From contig NZ_JAHLQH010000049.1 of the NCBI RefSeq assembly GCF_018918325.1, positions 124,001 through 188,000 on the forward strand: a stretch of 64,000 nucleotides of DNA. The letters run 5' to 3'. This DNA comes from Clostridium sp. MSJ-8. Lineage in GTDB: Bacteria; Bacillota; Clostridia; Clostridiales; Clostridiaceae. This document shows positions 5,509-58,890 of this stretch, in pieces; position 1 is the stretch's first letter, and each line of letters opens with the position of its first letter. The notes below the pieces were generated by a model, which saw only the letters and a program-made list of their open reading frames with translations, made no database searches and had not been told where the DNA came from. Position numbers and translations under genes: made by a program.

Positions 5509-7764
5509 ATGAAAAATCCGTTAAATAAGAGATTGCCAAGGGATATGAAACATAACTTTGGTAGATATTTTGTAATATTTATGTTTTTGACATTAACTAT
5601 AGGACTTATATCAGGTTATTTAGTTGCTAATACTAGTATGCAGATAGCATTTAAGGATAGTTTTAAGAAATATAATATAGAAGATTGTAATTTTGAAATT
5701 CCATTTAAAGCTGAAGATACTCTTATAGATACATTAGAAGCTGAAGATATAACTCTATATGAGAATTATTATGTTGAGGAAGATGCGTTAAAAGATACAG
5801 CTTTACGTATATATAAAGTTCCAACAAAGGTTAATAAGGTATCTGTATTAAAAGGAAAGAAACCGCATAAGGATAATGAAATAGCATTAGATCGTTTATA
5901 TGCAGTTGGAAATAACATTGATGTTGGAGATACTATTAAAATAAACAATAAAAATTTTAAAGTAACAGGTTATGTTGCATTATCTAACTATACTGCAGCA
6001 TTTAAGAAAAACTCAGATATAATGTTTGATTCAAAGAATTTTGGTGTAGCAATAGTTACTGATGAAGGATTTAAAGATTTAAATCAAAAAGAAATTCATT
6101 ATAGCTACTCATACAAATTTAATGATAAACATTTAACAGATAAAGAAAAAAGAGAAAAAAGTAAAGATATAGTTAAGATATTAAGTAGCAATACTATTGT
6201 TACAAGTTATACATTAGAAGAAAACAATCAAAGTATACATTTTGCAGGGGACGATATAGGAAAAGATAAGAGCATGACGATATGGTTATTGTATATTCTT
6301 ATACTTATAATGGCATTTATATTTGCAGTTACAATAATTAATACAATAGACTCAGAATCAGTAGTAATAGGAACTCTTTTATCTTCTGGATATTCAAGAT
6401 GGGAATTAGTTAGACATTATTGTAAGCTACCTATTGTAGTTTCTCTTATAGCAGCAGTTATAGGTAATATATTAGGATATTCTTTATTTAAAGGTCTAAT
6501 GGCTGACTTATATTATGGAAGCTATTCATTTCCAACCTATAAAACAGTATGGAATGCAGAAGCATTTGTATTAACAACAATTGTTCCTATAGTTATAATG
6601 ATAGTAATTAATATTGTGGCACTTTCGCATAAATTGGCCATTTCACCACTTAAATTTTTAAGACATGATTTGAGCAAGAAAAAAAATAAAAAGGCATTAA
6701 AGTTACCTAATTTCAAATTTAAAACTAGATTTAGATTAAGAGTAATAATACAAAATATGTCTAATTATATTGTTTTATTTGTAGGTATTCTATTTGCAAC
6801 ATTCCTTTTATTATTCTGTTTGATGATGCCAACAACAATTGATAAGACTAAAGATGCAATAAAGGATAGCCTTATAAGTAAATATCAATATATATTAAAA
6901 ACTCAGGTAGAAACTGAAAATAAGGATGCAGAGAAATTTGCAACATATTCTGTTGAATTGAACAAAAAGGTATATTCTTCTGATGAAAGTGTATCTGTAT
7001 ATGGACTTCAAAATGATTCTAAATATGTTAATTTAGATTTTGATGATAATTCTAATGGTGTATATATATGTGATGGTATATTAAAGAAATACGGAGTGCA
7101 AGTAGGAGATAATATAGAGCTTAAGGATTCTTATAATGATAAAAAGTATAAGTTTAAGGTCCTAGGAACATATGATTATCCAGCAAGTATGGCCATATTT
7201 ATGAATATAGATGATTTTAATAAGTGCTTCAATCATGATAAAGATTATTTTAATGGATATTTATCAGATAGTAAAATAAAAGATATAGATGAAGTATATA
7301 TAGCTTCCATAATAAAGTTATCAGATATGACTAACTTATGTGAACAATTAACTTCATCAATGGGTAGCATGTTTGATATGTTTACAGTTGTATGTGGAAT
7401 ATTATATATTGTACTTATGTATTTGTTAACTAAGGTTGTTATAGAGAAAAATTCAAATAGCATATCTATGGTTAAGGTGTTTGGATTTAATGATAGGGAA
7501 GTAAGTAGTTTTTATTTACATGCTACTACTATTGTTGTTATAGTATCACTTATAATAAGCATTCCAATATCAGAATGGTTACTAAGTGTATTGTTTAAAG
7601 AGATAATGAAGAGTATGACTGGTTGGTTTACTATGTATATAGATACAATAACTTATGTAAAGACTTTTGTAATAGGTATAATATGTTATATAGTAATTAA
7701 TTTAAGACAAGTTAGAAAAATTAATAAGATTCCAATGGAAGAAGCGTTAAAAAACAGAGAATAA
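5509..7764 (+). CDS. FtsX-family ABC transporter permease, 751 aa
   Basis: This is the membrane partner of the preceding ATPase. One N-terminal helix (about 20-42) is followed by an extracytoplasmic domain of about 200 residues. A first FtsX core of three helices spans about 255-385, then come a central helix (about 415-440), a second extracytoplasmic domain and a C-terminal three-helix FtsX core (about 620-745). The duplicated FtsX layout is typical of single-polypeptide export or stress-response permeases in Firmicutes rather than importers. A GGTGAAG site precedes the ATG. Nothing indicates the substrate. The gene ends three bases before a long palindromic repeat, so its natural terminator may have been replaced by that element. 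Confidence 0.88.
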   Translation: MKNPLNKRLPRDMKHNFGRYFVIFMFLTLTIGLISGYLVANTSMQIAFKDSFKKYNIEDCNFEIPFKAEDTLIDTLEAEDITLYENYYVEEDALKDTALRIYKVPTKVNKVSVLKGKKPHKDNEIALDRLYAVGNNIDVGDTIKINNKNFKVTGYVALSNYTAAFKKNSDIMFDSKNFGVAIVTDEGFKDLNQKEIHYSYSYKFNDKHLTDKEKREKSKDIVKILSSNTIVTSYTLEENNQSIHFAGDDIGKDKSMTIWLLYILILIMAFIFAVTIINTIDSESVVIGTLLSSGYSRWELVRHYCKLPIVVSLIAAVIGNILGYSLFKGLMADLYYGSYSFPTYKTVWNAEAFVLTTIVPIVIMIVINIVALSHKLAISPLKFLRHDLSKKKNKKALKLPNFKFKTRFRLRVIIQNMSNYIVLFVGILFATFLLLFCLMMPTTIDKTKDAIKDSLISKYQYILKTQVETENKDAEKFATYSVELNKKVYSSDESVSVYGLQNDSKYVNLDFDDNSNGVYICDGILKKYGVQVGDNIELKDSYNDKKYKFKVLGTYDYPASMAIFMNIDDFNKCFNHDKDYFNGYLSDSKIKDIDEVYIASIIKLSDMTNLCEQLTSSMGSMFDMFTVVCGILYIVLMYLLTKVVIEKNSNSISMVKVFGFNDREVSSFYLHATTIVVIVSLIISIPISEWLLSVLFKEIMKSMTGWFTMYIDTITYVKTFVIGIICYIVINLRQVRKINKIPMEEALKNRE

Positions 7765-7767
7765 ATG

Positions 7768-8066
7768 AAAAAATTAAGGTATTATTGTTAGATAACTTAT
7801 ATTTGACAATAATTAATATCAATATTATATGTTCTAAGTAAATAATATAATATCATTAAGTATTTACTAATATAATAAAAAAGAGTAAAGATCCCTAAAT
7901 ACTATAAACTCGCTAAAGCTCAGACAGTATAGTATTTTTAACGGGATCTTTACTTTTTTATTATAAGAAATACTAAATTCTATTATAAATAATTTACTTA
8001 AATCAATAATTTGATATTAATAACTGAAAAATAAGTAATCTAAAAAATATATTCAATAATTTTTTT
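7768..8066. repeat. Palindromic element, family alpha, internally deleted copy
   Basis: This 299-bp copy reads as one imperfect inverted repeat. The left terminus AAAAAATTAAGGTATTATTG matches the reverse complement of the right terminus at 8051-8066, allowing a short insertion. Inside, AATTAATATCAA pairs with TTGATATTAAT. The core has a perfect 12-bp stem (AGTAAAGATCCC 7884-7895 with GGGATCTTTACT 7943-7954), a 10-bp stem (AAATACTATA 7897-7906 with TATAGTATTT 7928-7937) and a 21-nt loop that carries a mini-hairpin GCTAAAGC. It lacks about 100 bp per arm relative to the copy at 42057-42515. It has no coding capacity and could also act as a two-way terminator. Confidence 0.85.
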
Positions 8067-8138
8067 AAGTAAGAATTACTGAAGACTTAAGATATTTGCA
8101 GACAATATAGATATATTAAAAATCACCATAACGCTTAA

Positions 8139-8294
8139 ATAATTAAAATATAATATGATTAGTGGAAGTAACCATTATTGTTATGGTTAGAATTATAGGT
8201 AGATACAGAATAATATAACCATGAAGAATTAAAGATTAGTATGAGTAATATGGAACAATCGGTTACTGAACTAATGCTATTATATTTTAATTAT
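8139..8294. repeat. Palindromic element, family beta
   Basis: This is a 156-bp element with terminal inverted repeats of about 35 bp that start ATAATTAAAATATAATA and continue to AGTAACC on the left, mirrored by GGTTACT...TATTATATTTTAATTAT on the right. Near-identical copies lie at 14366-14520, 42583-42739 and 42993-43149. A conserved 72-bp non-coding tail (8067-8138) joins it to the alpha element upstream; the same tail occurs in the blocks at 42.5, 42.9 and 47.0 kb. No ORF. Confidence 0.82.
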
Positions 8295-8460
8295 CAATAT
8301 TTATTCAAAGCAATAATATTGATACTAAAAAAGAAAATCATAATATTAGCATTATCAAATAACATTGGATTTTTCATTATCAATATTTACTTAAATCAAT
8401 AATTTGATATTAATTAACTGAAAAGATAAGTAATCAAAAAATATAGTCAATAATTGTTTA
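8293..8460. repeat. Right-arm fragment of family alpha element
   Basis: Matches the right arm of the full-length alpha element (42350-42515): it includes AACATTGGATTTTTCATTATC and the inner terminus TTTGATATTAATTAACTG, but has no left arm or central hairpin. It lies between the beta copy and the gamma copy and so shows stepwise accretion of the block. Confidence 0.75.
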
Positions 8461-8528
8461 TGTAGAAATGCAGAATACATAAGATACTTATTGAAAATAT
8501 AGATATACTAAAAAAATAACGCTTAAAT

Positions 8529-8714
8529 ATTTAACATAGAAGTGATTTGATGGAACAAAGCATTTTTGCTAGAGAAGAATTAATAATGTCTATAATAAAT
8601 AAAATACTGTGAGAAATTAGAGGTAAGTATGAATAAAATTGAGCAAACGCTTTGTAAAATCAAATCACCTCTGTGTTAATTGGTTACTGAACTAATGCTA
8701 TTATATTTTAATTA
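8529..8714. repeat. Palindromic element, family gamma, nested in a beta remnant
   Basis: Left arm TTAACATAGAAGTGATTTGAT and the right arm at about 8660-8681 are reverse complements with two differences; AACAAAGCATTTTTGCT and its partner continue the pairing inward. Outside the gamma arms sit both ends of a beta element: ACGCTTAAAT on the left and GGTTACTGAACTAATGC...TTTTAATTA on the right (8682-8714). Gamma therefore appears to have inserted into, or replaced the middle of, a beta copy. A second gamma copy is at 47099-47255. The right end touches the stop codon of the AraC-type gene. Confidence 0.75.
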
Positions 8715-13496: not shown

Positions 13497-13559
13497 CATT
13501 TTAGAGAAGTTTAGTGTATTGTAGTGTTAATATTAATAAATAAAAAGGGGAATATAGAA

Positions 13560-14330
13560 ATGGGTGATTTTTTAATAATAGCCTTCTTATTTTTTATAGG
13601 TAGTTTAATAGGTTGGTGTCTAGAAGTTATATTTAGAAGGTTTTTTTCAGATGCGAATCCAGAGAGAAAGTGGATTAATCCAGGTTTTTTAGTTGGACCA
13701 TATTTACCTTTATATGGTTTTAGTTTGTGTGTGTTGTATATATTAGCACATATAAATGTATCTTTCATACATAATAAAGTAGGAAGAGAAGTTACTTTGT
13801 TTATATTAATGGCAATTGCAGTTACAATAGTTGAATACATAGCTGGGCTTGTTTTTATTAAGGGAATGAAGGTTAAGTTATGGGATTATACAAATGAATG
13901 GGGAAATATACAGGGAATAATTTGCCCTAAATTTTCTTTTTTCTGGGTTATATTAAGTGCTGTATATTATTTTTTAATACATCCACATATAATAAATGCA
14001 CTTACATGGCTATCGGTACATTTATCATTTAGTTTTGTAGTTGGATTTTTCTATGGAGTATTTGCAATAGATTTATGTTATTCATTGAAGCTATTATCTA
14101 AGATTAAGAAGTTCGCAGATGATTATCAAGTAGTAGTAAAATATGAAGCATTAAGAGAAAGTATTAGAAAGAGAAATGAGGAAAGGTCCGAGAAGAGGAA
14201 GTTTATGCTTACTATGAGATCAGAAACAACAACCTTTGCTGAAAATTTAAAACAATATCTTGAACAAGAACAAGCGAAAATAAAAAATGAATATGAGGCA
14301 GGAATAAAAAAATTAAAGAGAAAGAAGTAA
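13560..14330 (+). CDS. Putative ABC-transporter type IV membrane protein (CmpB-like, PF06541)
   Basis: This 256-aa protein has about six predicted helices in the first 190 residues and a basic, coiled-coil-like cytoplasmic tail. The motif FFIGSLIGWCLEVIFRRF followed by NPGFLVGPYLPLYGFS is the hallmark of the Firmicute family often labelled putative ABC-transporter type IV, whose function is not established. The ATG at 13560 is preceded by AAAAGGGGAA at a good distance; an upstream ATG at 13524 has no such site. It is monocistronic and is followed directly by a beta repeat. No partner ATPase is adjacent, so a transport role is only a label. Confidence 0.8.
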   Translation: MGDFLIIAFLFFIGSLIGWCLEVIFRRFFSDANPERKWINPGFLVGPYLPLYGFSLCVLYILAHINVSFIHNKVGREVTLFILMAIAVTIVEYIAGLVFIKGMKVKLWDYTNEWGNIQGIICPKFSFFWVILSAVYYFLIHPHIINALTWLSVHLSFSFVVGFFYGVFAIDLCYSLKLLSKIKKFADDYQVVVKYEALRESIRKRNEERSEKRKFMLTMRSETTTFAENLKQYLEQEQAKIKNEYEAGIKKLKRKK

Positions 14331-14365
14331 ATTCTAAATTTAGTATAGATCAACATAATGCTTAA

Positions 14366-14520
14366 ATAATTAAAATATAATAAGATTAGTGGAAGTAACC
14401 ATTATTGTTAGGGTTAGAATTATAGGTAGATATAGAATAATATAACCATGAAGAATTAAAGGTTAGTAAGATTAATATGGAACAATCGGTTACTGAAACT
14501 AACACTTATTATATTTTAAT
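14366..14520. repeat. Palindromic element, family beta, solitary copy
   Basis: This 155-bp copy has the same termini as the copy at 8139-8294: ATAATTAAAATATAATAAG leading to GGAAGTAACC, mirrored by GGTTACTGAAACTAAC...TATATTTTAAT. It stands alone without an alpha element and so shows that beta is a separate unit. It fills the gap between two convergent genes and its right end stops 3 bp before the stop codon of the CPBP gene. Confidence 0.85.
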
Positions 14521-17954: not shown

Positions 17955-18197
17955 GATTGATTAATTGCAGTGAGAAAGAGGAGTAGAAACTGAAAGTATT
18001 ATAGAGAGAGAACATATGCTGGAAGTTCTTATATGGAAGGTTTTGAAGGTAGCTTTTGAGCATCTTTAGTGAAATAATAGTAGCTAGAGACGGTTTGTAT
18101 CTAAATCGTTATTATAATAAGAGCCTATGTTTGTAGGAATTAAGGTGGTACCGCGAGCTTTCGTCCTTTATTATAGAGGATGAAGGCTTTTTTTAAC
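17955..18197 (+). ncRNA. T-box leader (valine) upstream of valS
   Basis: This leader senses uncharged tRNA-Val and controls read-through into valS. The T-box sequence AAGGTGGTACCGCG is at 18142-18155. A terminator follows, with stem GCTTTCGTCCT / AGGATGAAGGC and a T7 run ending near 18196. Aligning Stem I with the pheS leader (GAAG-xxx-(G/A)CTT context) places the specifier codon GTA, for valine, at 18049-18051. From 18198 to valS (about 200 bp) there is only an AAAAGCAAA / TTTTGCTTTT hairpin (18298-18346) and the ribosome-binding site. Confidence 0.9.
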
Positions 18198-22776: not shown

Positions 22777-22844
22777 AATGATATATTAGTTTAAGTATGC
22801 TAAGTGAACTAAATAGCTAAACTAAAAATTATCATAGTGCTCAT

Positions 22845-22951
22845 ATAATTAAAATATTATAAGGTCTTTTCCATGAAAATGTTGAAGTTATAATAAGTTA
22901 TATTGTCCAATAAATAACTTTAACACTATTGTGGAAAGGACCTTATATTTT
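22845..22951. repeat. Long inverted repeat sharing the beta terminus (family epsilon)
   Basis: A hairpin of about 105 bp: ATAAGGTCTTTTCCA pairs with TGGAAAGGACCTTAT, and TGTTGAAGTTAT pairs with ATAACTTTAACA further in, leaving a loop of about 23 nt. The left end starts ATAATTAAAATAT, the same terminus as the beta elements. A degenerate half-copy occurs at about 4524-4565 (ATAAGTTCTTTTCCATA). It abuts the 3' end of the minus-strand gene at 22956 and could serve as its terminator. Confidence 0.7.
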
Positions 22952-32711: not shown

Positions 32712-32830
32712 ACGTTGAGAAGAAGAAACAAGCCGTTTCTCACCTTGCAGCACTTGTTTAGTAGCTAGCATGGTTAGCATTAAGTAGATTTACTATTTGA
32801 TAATAACAGACGGCATATGCCGTCTTTTTT
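32712..32830 (+). ncRNA. Ribosomal protein L20-type leader with terminator
   Basis: The leader lies between the infC promoter and infC. It contains a GAGAAGAAGAAAC...GTTTCTC stem, the GCAGCACTTG...TAGCTAGC region typical of Firmicute L20 leaders, and a terminator GACGGCATATGCCGTC plus T6 (32809-32830). In this class, excess L20 binds the leader and promotes termination before infC. Confidence 0.78.
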
Positions 32831-32877
32831 ATTATATATTATAGAATATTTGCTTTTTTATTTCGGAGGTGAAAACT

Positions 32878-36949: not shown

Positions 36950-37205
36950 ATGAAAGAAATGTAGATGAAGAGAGTAGATGTTTCGAGACATATAGGGAGA
37001 GAAGGTCATAGACTGTAAGCCTTCTTATGGCAAGTAGCATTGAAGTTCACTTCGTAGTTCTAGCTGTGAACATTTTAGTAGTAGCTAGCGGTTTAAACCG
37101 TTATATTTTATTTGAGAGAACATTCTATAATGAATGTTAATTAGGGTGGTAACGCGGATATTTTCGTCCCTTTGTTCGTTTTGAACATAGGGGCGTTTTA
37201 TTTTG
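36950..37205 (+). ncRNA. T-box leader (phenylalanine) upstream of pheST
   Basis: The T-box AGGGTGGTAACGCGG is at 37143-37157, followed by a terminator with stem CGTCCC...GGGGCG, extended by TTTGTTC/GAACATA, and a T-run ending near 37205. The specifier in Stem I is TTC (Phe) at 37046-37048, in the same GAAG-xxx-ACTT context as the valine leader. Uncharged tRNA-Phe should favour the antiterminator. Confidence 0.92.
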
Positions 37206-41390: not shown

Positions 41391-41447
41391 TCAAAGTCAT
41401 TCTATTTTAATCAAGTACTTCAATTAATGCTATTATATTTTAATTAT
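41391..41447. repeat. Short remnant with beta-family ends
   Basis: ATAATTAAAAT at the left and AATGCTATTATATTTTAATTAT at the right are the two ends of a beta element with almost all of the interior missing (57 bp in total). The rest of the 250-bp gap 41298-41546 shows nothing else beyond the next gene's ribosome-binding site. Confidence 0.6.
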
Positions 41448-41546
41448 AAACATTCGCTATTTACAAATTATTTGCTTTTTGTTATGATAATAGGCATTTT
41501 TGTACATTATAATATTATTATAGTGTACAATTAGGTGGTGATATAT

Positions 41547-42053
41547 ATGGAATTTGAAATCAAGAAGATTCATGTAGGATGGTTTGGTATGACTTTTAAT
41601 GCTGATGACAAAAACGTTTACATAGTCACAACTAGTAAGTGGTTAAATGATGGACCTAGACATTTTTTACAAGCATTTAATGAGATATTAACAATAAATC
41701 ACGGAGAAAGATATGTTATATTAGATGATGAACCAGGTGCTAATATTATATGTATGAAGAAAGTGAAGCCTGGAATGATAAATATTAGTATATATGCAAT
41801 TATTGAATGGTATGATTCTAGAATTAAGTTATATGGAGAAAAGATGCCAGATAACTTAGAAATATATGAAAAACTATTAGACGCAAACTTTAGTACTGTC
41901 AAACTATCTCATGATATATTAGATGCATTTGGGGAATATAGTCGTGGAGATAAAAATGAATATTATAATAAACATTGGTTTGAGTTTCCAGATGATGATT
42001 ATGAAAAACTAAAAAAATTAGTGTCAGGAAGTAGTATGAGTGATGTGGGATGA
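41547..42053 (+). CDS. Hypothetical protein, 168 aa
   Basis: This soluble, acidic protein is rich in aromatic residues, with no signal peptide or membrane segment. It starts MEFEIKKIHVGWFGMTF and has regularly spaced hydrophobic strands followed by helices (ILDDEPGANIICMKK, LEIYEKLLDANFSTVKLSHDILDAF), suggesting an alpha/beta fold. I do not recognise the family. The ATG at 41547 is chosen because AGGTGGTG is spaced correctly for it; a GTG 12 bases earlier lies within that site. It lies between a beta remnant and the largest repeat block, so may be accessory. Confidence 0.65.
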   Translation: MEFEIKKIHVGWFGMTFNADDKNVYIVTTSKWLNDGPRHFLQAFNEILTINHGERYVILDDEPGANIICMKKVKPGMINISIYAIIEWYDSRIKLYGEKMPDNLEIYEKLLDANFSTVKLSHDILDAFGEYSRGDKNEYYNKHWFEFPDDDYEKLKKLVSGSSMSDVG

Positions 42054-42056
42054 TTT

Positions 42057-42515
42057 GTATAATATTGTTAGATAGCTTATATTTTACAATAATTAATATC
42101 AAAATTATATGTTTAAGTAAATAATATAATATGGATAAAATCCAATGTTATTTGGTTTGATTAATATTATGTTTATTATTAGTATCAATATTATATGTTT
42201 TCATAAATAGCATAATTTCATTAAGCATTTCTAAATATAAAAAAATTAAGTTAGCTAAATGTTGTAAACTCACTAAAGTTCAAACAGTACAACATTTTAA
42301 ACGCTACCTTAATTTTTTTATAATAAGAAATCCTAAAATTCATTATGAAGATTTATTCAAAGCAATAATATTGATACAAATAAAGAAAATCATAATATTA
42401 GCATTATCAAATAACATTGGATTTTTTATTATCAATATTTACTTAAATCAATAATTTGATATTAATTAACTGAAAAGATAAGTGATTAAATAATAAATAT
42501 ATTCAATAATTTTTT
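42057..42515. repeat. Full-length palindromic element, family alpha
   Basis: About 460 bp forms one giant imperfect inverted repeat. Left-arm landmarks TTATTGTTAGAT, AATTAATATCAAA, ATCCAATGTTATTTGG, AGTATCAATATTATATG and AAAAAAATTAAG are each met, in reverse order and complement, in the right arm (CTTAATTTTTTTA, AATATTGATAC, AACATTGGAT, TTTGATATTAATT, CAATAAT). The centre is a hairpin: TTAAG-TTAGC with GCTAC-CTTAA, AAATGTTGTA (42257-42266) with TACAACATTT (42288-42297), and the loop AACTCACTAAAGTTCAAACAG. No ORF or transposase. Arms are about 190 nt each. Confidence 0.85.
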
Positions 42516-42582
42516 AAAAGTAAGAATTACTGATGAATACTTAAAATAATACAGATACACTAAAAATCACCATAACGCTTAA

Positions 42583-42739
42583 ATAATTAAAATATAATAA
42601 GCTTAGTGGAAGTAACCATTATTGTTAGGGTTAGAATTATAGGTAGATATAGAATAATATAACCATGAAAAATTAAAGATTAGTATAAATGATATGGAAC
42701 AATAGGTTACTGCAACTAATGCTATTATATTTTAATTAT
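42583..42739. repeat. Palindromic element, family beta (first copy of tandem pair)
   Basis: Terminal inverted repeats as in the copy at 8139-8294: ATAATTAAAATATAATAAG...GGAAGTAACC against GGTTACTGCAACTAATGC...TTTTAATTAT. 157 bp, no ORF. Confidence 0.85.
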
Positions 42740-42992
42740 AATCATTCATTATGAAGATTTATTCAAAGCAATAATATTGATACAAATAAAGAAAATCATA
42801 ATATTAGCATTATCAAATAACATTGGATTTTTTATTATCAATATTTACTTAAATCAATAATTTGATATTAATTAACTGAAAAGATAAATAATCAAAAATA
42901 AATGTATTTAATAACTTTTTTAAGCAAGAATTACTGAAGAATTAAGATGCTTATAATAATATAGATACACTAAAAATCACAATAACGCTTAA

Positions 42993-43149
42993 ATAATTAA
43001 AATATAATAAGCTTAGTGGAAGTAACCATTATTGTTAGGGTTAGAATTATAGGTAGATATAGAATAATATAACCATGAAGAATTAAAGATTAGTATAAAT
43101 GATATGGAACAATAGGTTACTGCAACTAATGCTATTATATTTTAATTAT
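42993..43149. repeat. Palindromic element, family beta (second copy of tandem pair)
   Basis: Nearly identical to 42583-42739. It is followed by a partial alpha right arm to 43232; the remaining 190 bp before the surface-protein gene shows only a short AGAATTC-type dyad (near 43360-43400) and the ribosome-binding site. Confidence 0.85.
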
Positions 43150-43425
43150 CAATATTTACTTAAATCAATAATTTGATATTAATTAACTAAAAAGATAAGT
43201 AATCCAAAAGAAATATATTCAATAATTTTTTTAGTAAGAAAAATTAATGCCATTTAATGCTTTAATTATAAATTGCCTTTATATGTTTAATGAGAAATTT
43301 TGCTTGATATTATAGTTGCTGTAATATTGTAAATGTGAATTTTCTATGATATTCTCCTAATTAGGAATTCTAGGGAAGATAAATTAATCAGAGAATTCTA
43401 TTTTTTAAGGAGGTAAGATATATTT

Positions 43426-46400
43426 ATGAAGAAAATTAAAGAGAGAGGTATCGCACTTGTTTTAACTGTATTAATGGTTTTATTTACAGTACCTAATATT
43501 GCATTTGCAGCAAATAATCCACCAAGTGAAATTAAAAATTGCGAATCAAATTTTGGCTATGATTTTAAAATCGAATTTAATGATACAGATAAAGAATGGC
43601 TTGAAGCAATTGATGAAATAATAATTGCTAACGAGAATTATTCAAAAGGTACATCAAGTTATAGTGTTTGGAATAATAAATACTATTACATTGATAAAGA
43701 TAATCAATATCTTTATATTGGCGAAGGGGGAGCTTTTGTAGACAATAAAGCAAGATGTGTAATAAAGGCTAACGGATATGAAGATTTGGTTTTGGAATTA
43801 GATAAAAGTAATCATACTGCAATTATATCAAAGGATTCATCTGAAGAAGATGAGAAATGCAAACATAGTGGTGGTATAGCAACATGTATAGAACAAGCAA
43901 CTTGTGAAAAATGTGGCAAGAAATATGGTGAATTAGGACCACATAATTATATTAATGGAGTATGTACTGTATGTGGTGACACATTAACAGCAGCACCTGA
44001 AGTATCATTAGAATCAGAATCTTATTATCTTGTTTTTAAAATAAAAGAAAAGGGATATGTATCAGGAATATCATCAATTTCTGAAAATGATACAGAATGG
44101 AAAGAACAATCATTTAAGATGGCTCTTAATGGAAAGCAATACTATTTAGATAAAGAAAATGACTGCATATATTTTGATAAATTTAATGGGATTCCATTTG
44201 AAACAGGTGGAATTATAACAATAAAAAATGAAGCTTATCAAGATATAAAATTAAAAGTAAATGTTGTTAATGATAAAGATGTTAATATTATTCCTGTTAC
44301 AGATGATGTAGAAGTTGGAGATGAATATAGATTACATGTAAGATTAGTTGGAAACTTTGAAGCAGCTATAATTAATCAAAAAGGTTATGATGCAGTAACA
44401 AGTGCTTCAACTAGTGTTACACAAAATAAAAATAGTAGTGCAGAAGTACAAGCTGTTATATTACCAAAGGATAAAGAACCAACAGAAGAAGATTGGAAAC
44501 CACTATGTGATAGTAATATTTCTTTAAATACCGCAAAGGACAAAACTTTTGTAACATTAGATGATCAATCAGGCATGGTTGGAGTGTATTCACCATATGA
44601 TAGTTCTGTAACTTTATCAGGTACACCAGAAAAGAAAGGTGAATACCCAATAACTGTAACAATAACTGATAATCAAGGAAGAAGAGCTACAAGTAATGCA
44701 CTTATATTTAAGGTTTATTCAGGTGAAGAAAATTTAGAAGATCAACTTACAACAGAAAATTGTACTCAAACTGCTGATGGTAAATATATGTATGATATGG
44801 AACCATGGGCAATTAAAAATTTTGATAATGATGATAATATAGTATATGTACCTAAAAATATAAAAGCTTGGTATGGTTCTCATACATCAGGTACTTATGG
44901 AAAATTAGGATATTCAATTCCATCAGCTTCAAAAACTACTCAAACTCTTGTAGTACCAAAGGGGTGTGATTTAACATTAGTAAATATGGATGTTTTGAGT
45001 AGTGTACGTATTGTTGTTGAAAATGGAGGTAAGCTATCTCTACATGATACTCCTATTCAAGGCATTGTTGAAGTAAAAAAAGGTGGAACTTTCTCTATGA
45101 ATTATAATGATTTTGGAGATGGAGAATTCCTTACAGGTTCTTCTATAAATGGACAACTGATACTTCAAGATGGAGCTACTGTAGTTAATTCAATTATTTA
45201 TTCTAATACTAATTATATTGCAAATGGTGATGAAACTAGATCAAATATTAATCCTGTAGTTGTAGCAAATGGTAATGTTAATGTTATAGGTACAGTAGTA
45301 ATTCGTGGAGATGAATCACCTATGGGTATAAATGCAACAACAGGGAAAGCAAATCCAGGACAAACAGGATTAAAAGTTAATGGAAAACTTAATATAACAG
45401 AAGGATCATATCTTGCTGTGTATGGTGGGGGTCATCTTGCACTTACTACAAATGGTGGGACAGCAATTGTTCTTAATAATGGAGAAATTACTGGTAAAGG
45501 TAAACTAATAGCTGTTGCTGGTGATGGAACATTTGGTTATGGCGGAAATGCAGTTGAAGGAAAAGGAATTATATCAGTTAAAGATGCATACTTAGAAGGT
45601 GGAGCTGCAATAAAACCTATGAAAAATGAAGTAGGAGGCAGTGCAATAACAGAAGGTATTAAAATCGCAGATACAACTAATCGTAATTTAATTAATGGAG
45701 AAACAAATACTACAGGAAATGTTGACTATGACAATGACACATATTGGGGAAGCATTGCAGATCCTCTTCCAAGTTTTGATGGTGCAGATAGTAAGTATCA
45801 AGTAGAAAAAAATGGCGTTACTAACATTAAAAAAGAGTATACATTAACATTATCACCAGAAAATACTAGTATTTATGTTGGAGATGTGTTTAATATAACA
45901 TATTCTGTTAACCCAATAGATGCAACTAATCAAGGAGTTATATACTCAAGTAGTGATGAATCAATAGCAACTGTAGATAATAATGGTATTGTAACTGCAA
46001 TTGCAGAAGGAAATGTTGTTATAAAAGTAACTACAGTAGATGGAACTCATAGTGCTGTTTGTAATGTAACTGTAGCTCATAAGCATGTATATAGTGATGA
46101 ATGGAAATGGGATACAAATAATCATTATCATATATGCACATGTGGTGATATAGCAGATTCTGAAACACATGTATTTGGCGATTGGACTGTAATACAAGAA
46201 GCTACTATAGAAGAAGATGGCATTAATGAACGTGTATGTACTGTTTGTGGTTTCATAGAAAGAACAACTACAAAATATGCTATAATTCCAGATTCAAATA
46301 AAGTTTTAGATGTGGATAATAACAAGAATAACAATGATAAAATTAATAAAGTTAATAATATAAAAGTTAATGATAATAATATAGTAAATAAATCAAGTAA

Positions 46401-46548
46401 GAATGAAAAGGATAGTAATAAAGTTATAAAAGAATCTAATGCTATCAAGACAGGAGATAATAATTCTTATATTGTATATGGTGTTATGATGATCTTAAGT
46501 ATCGCATTATATGCAGTATATTTAAACAAGAGAAAGAAATTAAGTTAA
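43426..46548 (+). CDS. Large cell-surface protein with HID-like (DUF1533), Cys-rich and BIG2 domains and a C-terminal anchor
   Basis: 1040 aa. A Sec signal peptide (about 1-28, ending IAFAA) is followed by two domains resembling DUF1533/HID, the heme- and hemoglobin-interacting domain of streptococcal Shr (about 35-142 and 190-285). Between them lies a Cys-rich segment with CxxC pairs (CEKCGK, CTVCGD) that looks metal-binding. A glycine-rich central region (about 520-780) reads like a right-handed beta-helix. A BIG2 Ig-like domain (about 806-880), a second His/Cys-rich module, an Asn/Lys-rich linker and a C-terminal KTGD-helix-RKKLS anchor (about 1010-1040) follow. KTGD suggests a degenerate sortase signal. 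AAGGAGG precedes the ATG. Repeat blocks flank the gene on both sides. Confidence 0.82.
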   Translation: MKKIKERGIALVLTVLMVLFTVPNIAFAANNPPSEIKNCESNFGYDFKIEFNDTDKEWLEAIDEIIIANENYSKGTSSYSVWNNKYYYIDKDNQYLYIGEGGAFVDNKARCVIKANGYEDLVLELDKSNHTAIISKDSSEEDEKCKHSGGIATCIEQATCEKCGKKYGELGPHNYINGVCTVCGDTLTAAPEVSLESESYYLVFKIKEKGYVSGISSISENDTEWKEQSFKMALNGKQYYLDKENDCIYFDKFNGIPFETGGIITIKNEAYQDIKLKVNVVNDKDVNIIPVTDDVEVGDEYRLHVRLVGNFEAAIINQKGYDAVTSASTSVTQNKNSSAEVQAVILPKDKEPTEEDWKPLCDSNISLNTAKDKTFVTLDDQSGMVGVYSPYDSSVTLSGTPEKKGEYPITVTITDNQGRRATSNALIFKVYSGEENLEDQLTTENCTQTADGKYMYDMEPWAIKNFDNDDNIVYVPKNIKAWYGSHTSGTYGKLGYSIPSASKTTQTLVVPKGCDLTLVNMDVLSSVRIVVENGGKLSLHDTPIQGIVEVKKGGTFSMNYNDFGDGEFLTGSSINGQLILQDGATVVNSIIYSNTNYIANGDETRSNINPVVVANGNVNVIGTVVIRGDESPMGINATTGKANPGQTGLKVNGKLNITEGSYLAVYGGGHLALTTNGGTAIVLNNGEITGKGKLIAVAGDGTFGYGGNAVEGKGIISVKDAYLEGGAAIKPMKNEVGGSAITEGIKIADTTNRNLINGETNTTGNVDYDNDTYWGSIADPLPSFDGADSKYQVEKNGVTNIKKEYTLTLSPENTSIYVGDVFNITYSVNPIDATNQGVIYSSSDESIATVDNNGIVTAIAEGNVVIKVTTVDGTHSAVCNVTVAHKHVYSDEWKWDTNNHYHICTCGDIADSETHVFGDWTVIQEATIEEDGINERVCTVCGFIERTTTKYAIIPDSNKVLDVDNNKNNNDKINKVNNIKVNDNNIVNKSSKNEKDSNKVIKESNAIKTGDNNSYIVYGVMMILSIALYAVYLNKRKKLS

Positions 46549-46727
46549 CATTATTGTTAGATAACTTATATTTTACAATAATTAATATCAAAATTATATG
46601 TTTAAGTAAATAATGTAATATGTAAAAAATCCAATGTTATTTGGTTTGATTAATATTATGTTTATTATTAGTATCAATATTATATGTTTTCATAAATAGC
46701 ATAATTTCATTAAGTATTTCTAACTAT
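46537..46727. repeat. Left arm of family alpha element
   Basis: AAATTAAGTTA...TTATTGTTAGATAACTTATAT through AATTAATATCAAA and ATCCAATGTTATTTGG matches the left arm of the 42057-42515 copy nearly base for base. The arm stops where a second alpha element begins (46728). The terminus overlaps the last three codons and stop of the surface protein gene. Confidence 0.8.
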
Positions 46728-47027
46728 AAAAAAATTAAGGTATTATTGTTAAATAACTTATGTTTCACAATAATTAATATCAAAATTATATGTTCTAAGT
46801 AAATAATATAATATCATTAAGTATTTACTAATATAATAAAAAAGAGTAAAGATCCCTAAATACTATAAACTCGCTAAAGCTCAGACAGTATAGTATTTTT
46901 AACGGGATCTTTACATTTTTATTATAAGAAATACTAAATTCTATTATAAATAATTTACTTAAATCAATAATTTGATATTAATAACTGAAAAATAAGTAAT
47001 CTAAAAAATATATTCAATAATTTTTTT
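46728..47027. repeat. Palindromic element, family alpha, internally deleted copy
   Basis: A 300-bp near-twin of the copy at 7768-8066: same termini, same 12-bp stem (AGTAAAGATCCC with GGGATCTTTAC) and same loop. It is joined head-on to the truncated left arm upstream and continues into the conserved tail (47028-47098). Confidence 0.85.
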
Positions 47028-47098
47028 AGTAAGAATTACTGAAGACTTAAGATATTTGCAGACAATATAGATATATTAAAAATCACCATAACGCTTAA

Positions 47099-47285
47099 AT
47101 AATTAAAATAGAAGTTATTTGATGGAACAAAGCATTTTTGCTAGGGAAGAATTAATAATGTTTATAATAAATAAAATACTGTGAGAAATTAAAGGTAAGT
47201 ATTAATGAAATTGAACAAACGATTTGTAAAATCAAATCACTTCTTATTTTAATTACTGAAACTAATGCTATTATATTTTAATTAT
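47099..47285. repeat. Palindromic element, family gamma, nested between beta ends
   Basis: ATAATTAAAATAGAAGTTATTTGAT and the right arm ending TTCTTATTTTAATTA (47255) are reverse complements with one indel and one mismatch. CTGAAACTAATGC...TATATTTTAATTAT (47256-47285) is the right end of a beta element. It has the same nested structure as 8529-8714. Confidence 0.75.
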
Positions 47286-55886: not shown

Positions 55887-57152
55887 ATGAAAATAAAAGA
55901 CATAATTAATTATAAAATAAAAAAAGAAATAAAAGATAAGTATAAAGCTATAAATATACTAGCATATTTTTTACTTATAATGCTTGGATTAACATTGTTA
56001 TCTAGATTCTCGGATTCACTTACTATTCCAAAAGTACAAACAACCAATGGAAATAGAGGAACTATTGATCACGAAATATCTGGAGAAGGAATGATATATC
56101 AAAATAGTAGTAATTCAGTAAACTTAATGGAAGGTCTGAAAATAAATTCAATTGATGTTGCTGAAGGAACATCAGTTAATGTAGGAGATACATTATTAAC
56201 TTTAGATATGGATACATTAAATACTGTGTTAGCTTCTCTTGAAAAAGAATTAGAATCATCTAAGCTTGCTTATAATAGAGCTGTAGAAGATCAAAAAAAT
56301 GCAGAAATTAAGATAAATAAACAAATATCAGATGCTAAAAGTGCTATGGACAAGGCACAAAGTGATATGAATAATGCTCAAGATGAGGAAAAAGAACAAT
56401 ATAGACAAGAGTATGAAGCTAAAAAATCAGAGTATGAAGAATTGGTAAATGGTAAGGATGAAACTTTATTATCATATAAAAGAGCAGTAGAAGATGCAAA
56501 GAACCAAGATAATTCAGAAGTATCTGAAAAAGTACAAAAGCTTACTGAGATAAAAAATGCAGGTGGTAAATTAACTGCACCTACTTCAGGAACAATTATA
56601 GAAATAACTGCTGAAAAAGGTGGAACTACTCAAGGGGGAAGTGTTATATCATTATCTAATTCTGAAGTGGAAAATCTTCTTACAGTACAAATATCAAAAG
56701 ATGAAAAAAAATCTATAAAAGTAGGACAGAAAGTGGATGTGACAATAGATGATGATAGTACTTATATGTCTAACGTAAAAATAGCATCTATAAAAGTTAA
56801 TTCTGAAAATTCAGAGATGTTAGATGTTACTGTAAAGCTACCTGTTGGGCAAGGTACTATTGGAGAATATGGCAAAATAACTGTTCCAGCAGAGAGTAAA
56901 GAGTATGATGTAATATTGCCACTTGAAGCTATTCATCAAGATGGTAATAAATATTATGTGTTAGTTGTAACTGATAAAGACACTGTATTAGGTAGTCAAA
57001 AAATTGCATCAAAGGTTGAAGTATCTATTGCTGATAAAAATGGAGATAGTGTTGCACTAAAGGATTCAGCTATATCTTCTTATGATGAAGTAATAGTATC
57101 ATCTAATAAAGATATAAAGGATGGAGACAGAATAAGAAAGGAGGATAAATAA
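55887..57152 (+). CDS. HlyD/RND-type periplasmic adaptor (membrane fusion protein)
   Basis: This 421-aa protein has one N-terminal helix (about 24-42), a split lipoyl/barrel-sandwich domain (SIDVAEGTSVNVGDTLLTLD near 88-107 and TAPTSGTIIEITAEKGGTTQGG near 230-251), an intervening coiled coil (about 108-215) and a beta-barrel/membrane-proximal part. Adaptors of this kind join efflux permeases of the MacB or RND class. Here the gene lies within an importer-type operon, 3 bp after the second permease, and overlaps the next gene by a base. The expected efflux partner is replaced by an unusual membrane protein. Confidence 0.9.
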   Translation: MKIKDIINYKIKKEIKDKYKAINILAYFLLIMLGLTLLSRFSDSLTIPKVQTTNGNRGTIDHEISGEGMIYQNSSNSVNLMEGLKINSIDVAEGTSVNVGDTLLTLDMDTLNTVLASLEKELESSKLAYNRAVEDQKNAEIKINKQISDAKSAMDKAQSDMNNAQDEEKEQYRQEYEAKKSEYEELVNGKDETLLSYKRAVEDAKNQDNSEVSEKVQKLTEIKNAGGKLTAPTSGTIIEITAEKGGTTQGGSVISLSNSEVENLLTVQISKDEKKSIKVGQKVDVTIDDDSTYMSNVKIASIKVNSENSEMLDVTVKLPVGQGTIGEYGKITVPAESKEYDVILPLEAIHQDGNKYYVLVVTDKDTVLGSQKIASKVEVSIADKNGDSVALKDSAISSYDEVIVSSNKDIKDGDRIRKEDK

Positions 57153-58300
57153 TGAAAATTAAGTCTCACATAGTTAATTTAGTATTACTTATTATATTGA
57201 TTATGTGTGTAGGATATGAGATAGCATACTATAATGAGGCTAAATTTTCAAAAAAGGTTTCGTATTTATATGTGCAGGATTCTAATATAGATGTAAAGTC
57301 TATGCAAAAGTATCTAAAAGATGAAGAGGTAGATAACAGATTTTCATTTGTTGGATTTAAAGAGGAGTCTAATGGAACAGCATACAATATGGAACTTGGC
57401 AAAAATACAGAGTGTAATGTTATATATTTAGTCGGGAATTCTAATGTTATATTAAATAATACATCCTTGTATTTAGATGATAGTAAAGGGTGTATTGTAG
57501 ATAAGAAAGTAGCATATGCATTATTTGGAGATTATAATGTAAAAGGATTAACAATAACATATAATGATATTGAGTATACAATAAGAAATGTTGTAGATAA
57601 TTTAGAAAATGCTATAGTCATAGAGGGTGATAGTAATTCTAATATAATGATGGATATAATAGCAGTAGAAAGTGATGATGAAAGTTATACTGAAGAATTT
57701 ATGAATAAATATGGTATAAATGCTATAACAAGTGATAATAACATATATTATAGATTTGCTGAAGGTATGTCTTGTATTTTACTTATTATTATATTGATTA
57801 TATTTTTATCTAAACTTATTAGAATTATTATTAAGGACAAAGATAGGCCTATAAAACAACTTATAGACATAGCTATTATAATTATAGTGTGTATGAATTT
57901 ATATAAAGTTGTAGATGTTAATTTTACTATTAATTATAATCTTATACCTAATGAATGGTCAGATTTTGATTATTGGGGAGATATGATAAGAAAATATAGT
58001 GAAAAATATAAGAGTATTATGCTAATGCAGAAATATAATATAGAAATATTTCCTTTCATTAATGCTGCTAAAAGTATAGCTTGTGGAATTATATCTATTG
58101 TATTGTTTTGGACCGTTAAGAATAGGATTAAGGTAGATAATTTGAAGAAGTTATATCTATTAATCGTTTTAACAATGATAATAGAATTTATTGTTATTAT
58201 AATTGTTAATAAAAATTATGAACTTAATAGTTCGAGAATTATATATTTATTTCCTTATTATTTTGCTATAAATTATTTTTTAGATAAAAAATTAAGTTAG
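57152..58300 (+). CDS. Membrane protein with MacB-periplasmic-domain-like region
   Basis: 382 aa. One N-terminal helix (about 8-27), an extracytoplasmic domain of about 175 residues and five C-terminal helices (about 206-226, 237-255, 305-323, 335-353 and 358-376). The segment GCIVDKKVAYALFGDYNVKGLTITYNDIEYTIRNVV is very like the MacB_PCD signature of FtsX-type permeases, but the helices do not form the usual FtsX core and there is no ATPase. I read it as a diverged partner for the HlyD-like adaptor; this is inference. The start overlaps the previous stop (TAATG). Its last codons (KKLS and stop) lie within the terminus of an alpha repeat. Confidence 0.7.
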   Translation: MKIKSHIVNLVLLIILIMCVGYEIAYYNEAKFSKKVSYLYVQDSNIDVKSMQKYLKDEEVDNRFSFVGFKEESNGTAYNMELGKNTECNVIYLVGNSNVILNNTSLYLDDSKGCIVDKKVAYALFGDYNVKGLTITYNDIEYTIRNVVDNLENAIVIEGDSNSNIMMDIIAVESDDESYTEEFMNKYGINAITSDNNIYYRFAEGMSCILLIIILIIFLSKLIRIIIKDKDRPIKQLIDIAIIIIVCMNLYKVVDVNFTINYNLIPNEWSDFDYWGDMIRKYSEKYKSIMLMQKYNIEIFPFINAAKSIACGIISIVLFWTVKNRIKVDNLKKLYLLIVLTMIIEFIVIIIVNKNYELNSSRIIYLFPYYFAINYFLDKKLS

Positions 58301-58676
58301 TGTTATTGTTGGATAATTTATATTTCACAATAATTAATATCAAAATTATATGTTCTAAGTAAATAATATAATATGTAAAAAATCCAATGTTATTTAGTTT
58401 AATTAATATTATGTTTGTTATTAGTATCAATATTATATGTTTTCATAAATAGCATAATTTCATTAAGTATTTACTAATATAATAAAAAAGAGTAAAGATC
58501 CCTAAATACTATAAACTCGCTAAAGCTCAGACAGTATAGTATTTTTAACGGGATCTTTACTTTTTTATTATAAGAAATACTAAATTCTATTATAGATAAT
58601 TTACTTAAAGCAATAATTTGATATTAATTAACTTAAAAAATAAGAAATCAAAAATAAATATATTCAATAATTTTTT
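58286..58676. repeat. Palindromic element, family alpha, asymmetric deletion
   Basis: The left arm is full length (AAAAAATTAAG, AATTAATATCAAA, ATCCAATGTTATTTAG, AGTATCAATATTATATG), whereas the right arm is the short form ending CAATAATTTTTT. The central hairpin is the AGTAAAGATCCC / GGGATCTTTACT type (58491-58502 and 58550-58561). It closes the transport cassette on the right. The following 210 bp up to aroF are AT-rich and contain no recognisable gene or leader RNA. Confidence 0.85.
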
Positions 58677-58890
58677 ATCCTTAAGAACTTTTTTTAAAAA
58701 GATATTTGCTTAAGTTAATCATATATAGTACAATATTCATAAATGCACATAATATGGCGATAAGCTACATTAATTATAAAAATTTGTATTTCAAATAATT
58801 GATGATTATATATAATTATTAAGATGTAAGTAATAATGTAAACTAATATTATATGTTATATAGTTTTTTTGCCAGAGTAGGGGGTTAAGT

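Follow-up and report, generated by a model that had tools for sequence, protein, structure and literature searches.

A palindromic repeat anchored at stop codons in Clostridium sp. MSJ-8 shares its hairpin tip with palindromes of other genera and phyla

The palindrome at positions 42057-42515 of the window, a 64,000-nucleotide stretch of Clostridium sp. MSJ-8 DNA, belongs to a species-specific repeat that has been amplified. This repeat is probably a nonautonomous hairpin element acting at transcript ends; we infer its mobility, its part in termination, and the existence of a factor that recognizes it. Two aspects are new here: the copies are anchored at stop codons, and the tip of the hairpin is common to genera and phyla. 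The occurrence of different arms beneath the same tip in other bacteria suggests a widespread family.

RESULTS

The reference palindrome folds end to end

Folding the whole 459-base element gave a single end-to-end hairpin of -125 kcal/mol, compared with -60.9 +/- 4.8 kcal/mol for 100 dinucleotide shuffles, none of which was as good (z -13.4), and the opposite strand gave a fold z of -13.9. The preliminary description of this DNA had proposed that the two arms pair in this way, which is borne out, and its question of whether they pair better than shuffled sequence is answered in the affirmative for this element. It had also seen no ORF in the palindrome, and we found none of at least 80 amino acids (aa) within it; chance ORFs of 88-95 aa are present in some other copies of the repeat. 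The element starts 3 nt past the stop codon of the ORF at 41535-42053, and its parts are listed together with related modules in Table 1. Rfam at the gathering threshold found nothing on the hairpin elements, and at a relaxed threshold it gave sub-threshold microRNA-precursor matches only. Elsewhere in the window, Rfam recognized two T-box leaders and an L20 leader (17961-18171, 36953-37174, and 32714-32837).

Table 1. Hairpin elements, cores, and U modules in the window
Feature	Position	Strand	Basis or context
Full-length type-1 reference element	42057..42515	+	Fold, own-genome copies, stop adjacency
Type-1 core hairpin, A-tract 5' and T-tract 3'	42236..42320	+	Module map, core listing of copies
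Conserved apical loop AACTCACTAAAGTTCAAACA	42267..42286	+	Loop-pattern matches in genome
CTAAA box, 5' strand, below apical stem	42255..42259	+	Sequence; own-site counts of CTAA
U module, second palindrome, ends TAATTAAAATATAATA and TATTATATTTTAATTA	42531..42740	+	Fold z -4.2, sharp right edge, copies
Extra right half (RAi-RAo)	42744..42920	+	Module map
Second U module	42947..43149	+	Repeat search, module map
Third right-arm piece (RAo)	43148..43231	+	Module map
Type-2 element	7765..8065	+	Directly after stop of ORF 5509-7764 (FtsX/MacB-type permease)
U - right half - U train, behind 7765 element	8104..8714	+	Copies, module map
U modules inside the 8104..8714 train	8104-8294, 8484-8714		
Solo incomplete U (module positions 31-206)	14344..14520	+	Just past stop of ORF 13524-14330, sense
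U fragments	22807-22863 and 41416-41448		
Type-1 left half (outer shell)	46549..46742	+	After stop of ORF 43426-46548; module map, repeat family D4
Type-2 element joined to type-1 left half at AAAAAATTAAGGTA/TTATTG	46728..47026	+	Strict junction pattern
U module behind 46728 element	47064..47284	+	Repeat search, copies, module map
Composite copy: full left arms, type-2 core, shortened right arm	58286..58677	+	

The repeat is amplified in its own genome

One genome per species was used throughout, and G000 denotes the window's own, a 2.82-Mb draft in 54 contigs in which the window is C1:124001-188000. With 40 of 370 first-look candidates scored, BLAST of the reference palindrome against G000 returned at least 150 matching pieces, which fall on both strands because the element is a palindrome. 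Among the candidates scored, 18 further places were 88-97% identical to the query over 85% or more of its length. A script applied to the window and the fetched loci found 54 cores of the family, which is about the total, and the loop pattern CTCRCTNNNGYTCARACA had 52 exact matches in G000 against none for its reversed control. The preliminary description had counted four related copies in the window, near 7768, 46728, and 58286 plus a left arm near 46537. These are real (at 7765, 46728, 58286, and 46549), but four is too low a number given the approximately 54 cores, and the related sequence at other loci on which that description had made its reading depend is present elsewhere in G000.

Its account of the copies as internal deletions of the arms holds in part. 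There are two core types, with a common loop and differing stems, and the copies comprise these two types plus composite and stacked forms. The shorter type-2 copy, folded as 7760-8062, has a z of -9.3, and the composite copy overlaps the stop codon of the ORF at 57152-58300. The features by which MITEs are recognized (short, noncoding, multicopy, and with terminal inverted repeats) are present in the G000 elements.

We assessed the conservation of structure by aligning 18 of the genome's own copies and projecting the fold of the first copy on the alignment. Paired cells made up 95.1% of the total, and 15 of 175 pairs were changed on both sides. The covariation score was 0.051, versus 0.030 when shuffled (0 of 500 as high) and 0.007-0.020 when slid. 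Four sequences with a type-2-like core differ at six core pairs, and these pairs account for at least 24 of the 40 cells changed on both sides, so independent covariation events are few.

Elements are stacked and interleaved with a second palindrome

Across the window and 49 loci, the modules behind an upstream gene typically came in the order left halves (LAo-LAi; one, two, or three), a single core, and right halves (RAi-RAo), after which the next gene follows. On the module map, right halves number three at most and often have a second palindrome, U, behind them; some copies have no right half (e.g., L023, L028, and L052). Halves can be unequal in number: L006, L012, and L013 have two right halves and a single left one, and L005 has three of each around one core and, in addition, a core-less train of right halves and U. 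The U module folds independently and has a sharp right edge of its own (Table 1). Its copies lie in sense behind plus-strand genes, interleaved with right halves of the hairpin element. The junction AAAAAATTAAGGTA/TTATTG, where a type-1 left half passes into a type-2 element, is identical in 8 of 54 copies under a strict pattern, and this sharing is best read as a single fusion that would have multiplied afterwards.

Copies in G000 adjoin stop codons in sense

The copies are not freely scattered; they adjoin stop codons in the sense orientation. We measured the distance from the left edge of similarity to the nearest sense stop, using stop-to-stop frames of at least 180 nt, and 1 of the 54 copies (L024) was not measurable. 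Of the 53 copies measured, 44 had the edge no more than 20 nt from a sense stop, and none had it farther off than 40 nt. The same two distances took in 44 and 74, respectively, of 1,080 random points in these loci, a control that strengthens the claim of anchoring. Left ends are variable because the edge of similarity falls at different arm positions among the copies, with 5' truncation differing accordingly. A simple ORF caller placed a sense ORF nearest upstream at 51 of the 53 sites; at the other 2, a chance ORF of 60-61 aa intervenes, and a second script saw the sense ORF. The cores also resemble terminators in that, immediately past a gene, a stable stem is followed by a T-run.

Sense orientation, stop-codon anchoring, and variable 5' truncation in G000 could all be produced by a retroelement or an intron-like element spreading by way of an RNA copied into gene ends. 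We consider such an origin highly improbable, given that a search of five genomes for reverse transcriptases (RVT_1, PF00078) found a match in G000 only and none in G062, G114, G141, or G184. The one G000 reverse transcriptase is at L470 (G000:C19:2053-2673), in a 474-aa frame.

The tip is shared, and the arms are species specific as far as tested

Searched against 58 related genomes, the arms gave short, weak matches only (best E value, 5e-6 over 51 nt), and the arms are therefore species specific as far as tested. The search of related clostridia that the preliminary description had proposed was thus poor in arm matches, but several of the genomes contain other palindromes with the same tip. 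We recognized this tip by the loop pattern AACTCRCT-N1-4-GYTCARACA. Of 68 genomes in the genus, 19 contained it, as did 77 of the 225 in the order; these 77, which include G000, belong to 24 of 56 genera and have up to 89 matches each. The pattern was not found in the other 148 genomes of the order. Its reversed control gave zero matches save in 13 genomes, all of genus g19, one of which (G108) had 8 control and 8 pattern matches. A chance or AT-rich artifact is ruled out by these controls and the folding controls together, genus g19 excepted. Within a single genus, G141 has 51 matches and G142 has none.

Beneath the shared loop, G062, G114, G141, and G184 have palindromes of their own, about 200-330 bp long. 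The mean number of pairs spanning the loop was 79.5 in G000 (45 distinct sites), 79.7 in G062 (12 sites), 86.5 in G141 (50 sites), 81.9 in G114 (51 sites), and 86.3 in G184 (9 sites). With shuffled flanks the means were 18.8-24.2, and the extremes overlap, the lowest observed value being 34 and the highest shuffled value being 60. Six of eight single loci from other genomes of the genus fold around the loop, and the remaining two (L071 and L072) have no long hairpin. When arms from 20 representatives were compared between species with the loop masked (E value, 1e-3), matches were few: G062 matched G070 over 212 nt, four Bacteroidota gave five matching pairs, and G015 was involved in two short, weak matches. 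By eye, the G062 elements at L083 and L084 read as chains of three palindromes, and two G062 subfamilies have swapped end sequences (TATAACTAAATTGTTCG versus TTGAATAATATTGCG) with the loop orientation unchanged. Inside the loop, where the other letters are conserved by the construction of the pattern, the R-Y pair covaried over 191 contexts (GC, 128; AT, 32; GT, 11; AC, 20).

Two short boxes flank the loop. On the 5' strand, CTAA was present at 43 of 45 sites in G000 (mirrored control, 1), 11 of 12 in G062 (control, 0), 34 of 50 in G141 (control, 3), 49 of 51 in G114 (control, 1), and all 9 in G184 (control, 0). On the 3' strand, T[ATC]ACG was present at 15 of 45 sites in G000 and 33 of 51 in G114 (control, 0 in both) and at 12 of 12 in G062, where the mirrored control was equally 12, and it was found at 0 of 50 sites in G141 and 0 of 9 in G184. 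The 3' box is therefore not universal, and its lack in two species weakens the claim of a shared bulge.

A scan of named species genomes with the loop pattern plus the CTAAA box returned at least 119 stretches, and the hosts among the matches listed were Flavobacterium, Flammeovirga, Sphingobacterium, Tenacibaculum, Bacteroides, Parabacteroides, Clostridium, Anaerococcus, Selenomonas, and Rodentibacter. Among the matches listed, TNACG started 10-13 nt past the loop at 98 of 120 distinct named sites, a second TNACG stood at 36-37 nt at 40 of them, and CTA lay exactly 20 nt above the CTAAA box at 56, 21 nt above it at 8, and 24 nt above it at 10. Both TNACG and the upper CTA are outside the search pattern but were noticed on these same matches before they were counted, and the sites are not independent because Flammeovirga supplies many of them. 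This spacing amounts to a ladder in which each rung spans roughly 20 bp and bulges lie on the 3' side. In four Bacteroidota loci (L336, L372, L330, and L354), a recurring block, CTTGATACAAAA..GAACCAAAAAATCAAGGC, could be seen by eye before the palindrome and AAGGCC after it, and CTTGA in the loop could pair with TCAAG. The exact core-2 loop had no match in the genome contigs, and the element had none in a plasmid collection. In viral contigs, a looser loop pattern matched at least 120 stretches, a mixed set in which many sequences had no long pairing.

The hairpins might instead be immobile terminators or 3'-untranslated-region hairpins that serve the host, with a tip that binds a conserved RNA-binding factor and with copies made by gene conversion among terminators. 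Their sense position adjoining stop codons, the A-tract and T-tract flanks of the cores, and the R-Y covariation of the loop would suit such a role, and AT-rich stem-loops near stops are known in low-GC Firmicutes (PMC1590033). We nevertheless regard this explanation as rather unlikely, in view of the patchy distribution within one genus, the composite and stacked copies, and arms that are 88-97% alike within G000 and yet find only short, weak matches in the 58 related genomes.

Putative insertion sites in other genomes

In five genomes taken together, the upstream neighbor was in sense at 158 of 182 sites examined. The sense fraction was 14 of 17 sites in G062 (which has 25 matches), 47 of 51 in G141 (all of its matches), 40 of 51 in G114 (of 89 matches), and 6 of 10 in G184 (of 55 matches), with opposite orientation at 3, 4, 11, and 4 sites, respectively. 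The binomial P value for this bias, 1e-25, is overstated because the copies are not independent. Stop-to-loop distances in G114 cluster at the length of one arm, being 107-121 nt in 25 of 40 sense copies. Orientation was weaker in the named-genome set, where 129 sites among the matches listed divided into 65 sense, 40 opposite, 20 with no upstream ORF, and 4 within an ORF, and gene-end anchoring may therefore be a clostridial trait. At L111 and L115, some convergent gene pairs in G114 and G141 have one sense element per gene, with some 260-360 bp between the two facing elements.

In the window's own species, represented by a single genome, no empty site was seen. Among orthologues, the one informative comparison was that of G141 with G142, two species that are 72-88% alike over the matched pieces. 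The tadA gene of the copy-free G142 ends in AGA TAG, and that of G141 reads AGATA/TAGGGC...CCCTA/TAG when aligned by eye, as if the element had entered the stop codon at its TA. At metG, again by eye, the G141 element lies 3 nt past the stop; the inverted repeat present in G142 is of the ordinary terminator-like kind and lies about 30 nt beyond its stop. Both ends could be recognized by pattern in 14 of the 51 G141 copies, and in 7 of these 14 there was TA on both sides (TA/TAGGG...CCCTA/TA). A MITE mobilized by a Tc1/mariner-IS630 transposase, which inserts at TA, would leave this arrangement, but the flanking TA may be part of the element itself rather than a duplication. A tip common across phyla, on arms and ends that are mostly unrelated, would also be unexpected of independently deleted transposons, and a search of six genomes for DDE_3 (PF13358) gave nothing above the cutoff and one sub-threshold match, in G000. 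An IS630 origin is accordingly improbable in our judgment.

Search for a mobilizing enzyme

A Pfam scan of nine nearby window proteins revealed no transposase, and three of the nine had no Pfam match of any kind. When 725 ORFs from 119 named loci were compared all against all, the largest group, of generic proteins, was common to 10 loci, and its three scanned members were ABC transporters. In all, the six proteins scanned from four of the larger groups were these 3 ABC transporters, a regulator-propeller/SpoIIE protein, a signal peptidase, and an aminotransferase. An autonomous relative with the same termini, which the preliminary description had recommended seeking, was not found in these 119 loci or in the searches with PF01797, PF00078, and PF13358.

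Y1_Tnp genes (PF01797) were present in 16 of 18 motif-rich genomes and had no match in G141 or G184, which have 51 and 55 loop matches. We inspected 15 of 30 fetched Y1 loci: 14 had no motif in the fetched flanks, and L442 (in G185) had one, at a distance of about 470 nt from the Y1 match. Two of the four Y1 matches in G000 are fragments, and the other two are full-length IS200-type genes with different ends; on these two full-length copies we rejected IS200 ends as the source of the hairpins.

Flammeovirga sp. SJP92 has two RAYT group 5-like genes in loci that also carry the loop motif, L365 (1841-2392, minus strand) and L415 (976-1524, minus strand), which we recognized by the text pattern YIH[QN]NP. 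Both are flanked by hairpins with the loop TGTTAAGC..GCGTCA, not by the loop motif itself. By eye, this loop resembles the complement of the one studied here, and we mention it as a lead only.

The hairpins have bulges, many copies, and positions near gene ends, as would REP sequences moved by a RAYT or another Y1 (HUH) transposase. For genes of RAYT group 5 (subclass 2.6), flanking "atypical secondary structures" are reported, copies of which also occur elsewhere (PMC6006769), and the two Flammeovirga genes and the widespread Y1 genes would fit this explanation. It is disfavored, and we give it little credence: two copy-rich genomes have no Y1_Tnp match, nearly all of the inspected Y1 loci have no motif nearby, and the full-length Y1 genes of G000 are of the IS200 type.

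DISCUSSION

The preliminary description had taken the palindrome for a nonautonomous mobile element, and a dispersed, noncoding hairpin repeat of this kind is still best read so, but its copies are not freely scattered, and the transposase families tested are missing from some or all of the copy-rich genomes. We compared the repeat with known systems. Like the REP/RAYT (TnpA_REP) families marked by GTAG/CGTC, it consists of dispersed intergenic palindromes with bulges that are patchy among species and often near gene 3' ends. It differs in size and in its family mark: REP stems are 5-13 bp long and the arms here are about 100-230 nt, and REP families are marked by a GTAG/CGTC foot, while the conserved part here is the apex (PMC3733652). 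It differs further in that two copy-rich genomes have no Y1 gene. In a rough count with no chance level, we looked for GTAG/CGTC or its complement in 30 nt at what was taken as the left end: 5 of 51 G141 copies and 4 of 17 G062 copies had it, the ends in G000 being variable.

Like MITEs, the elements are noncoding, multicopy inverted repeats, and in one species they have TAGGG/CCCTA ends with TA flanks in half of the measurable copies. Unlike MITEs, they are palindromic throughout, have a tip that is similar across phyla, and show a sense bias at stops, and the parent transposase was not found among those sought. Integron attC sites are folded hairpins behind stop codons in which structure is retained while sequence drifts. 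The present hairpins share this position and this precedence of structure over sequence, but they lie outside cassette arrays, and their conserved part is the apex. AT-rich stem-loops with 5' A and 3' T runs close to stops in low-GC Firmicutes, and the clostridial intergenic families Clop-1 (Clostridium perfringens) and Clot-1 (Clostridium tetani), resemble the repeat in position and flanks (PMC1590033 and PMC2267715). Those are stem-loops of 30-50 nt or families of 74 and 93 bp, and the comparison is one of descriptions, not sequences. In the literature searched, which lay outside subscription journals, we did not recognize the motif in any description.

We infer a mechanism in which the tip (the apical loop with the CTAA box and often TNACG) would be the site at which a trans-acting factor recognizes the folded strand. 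The arms would need only to pair, which may be why they drift between species. In the transcript, the element would form a 3'-end hairpin, a terminator-like stem with its A-tract and T-tract, and such a role could explain why copies are kept beside stop codons. We give about an even chance to the reading that combines these steps, namely, a nonautonomous, REP/MITE-like dispersed hairpin that has multiplied in G000, with a tip recognized in trans and a hairpin at the 3' end of the transcript. More tentatively, and at less than even chances, the hairpins could belong to a phylum-crossing mobile class recognized by its apical module (the loop AACTCRCT..GYTCARACA plus CTAAA/TNACG boxes about every 20 bp) and not by its termini. 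An undescribed enzyme would then target stop codons in clostridia, and the arms would be replaceable, so that each species would have a family of its own.

If this is true, long hairpins built on one common tip are present in many bacterial genomes, from two large phyla at the least, and no mover is known for them; this would point to an unrecognized hairpin-handling factor, and one species with 51 matches beside a congener with none would provide a ready test set. The finding also bears on the old question of why bacterial palindromic repeats gather at the 3' ends of genes, since the hairpin copies in question adjoin the stop codon, mostly in one orientation.
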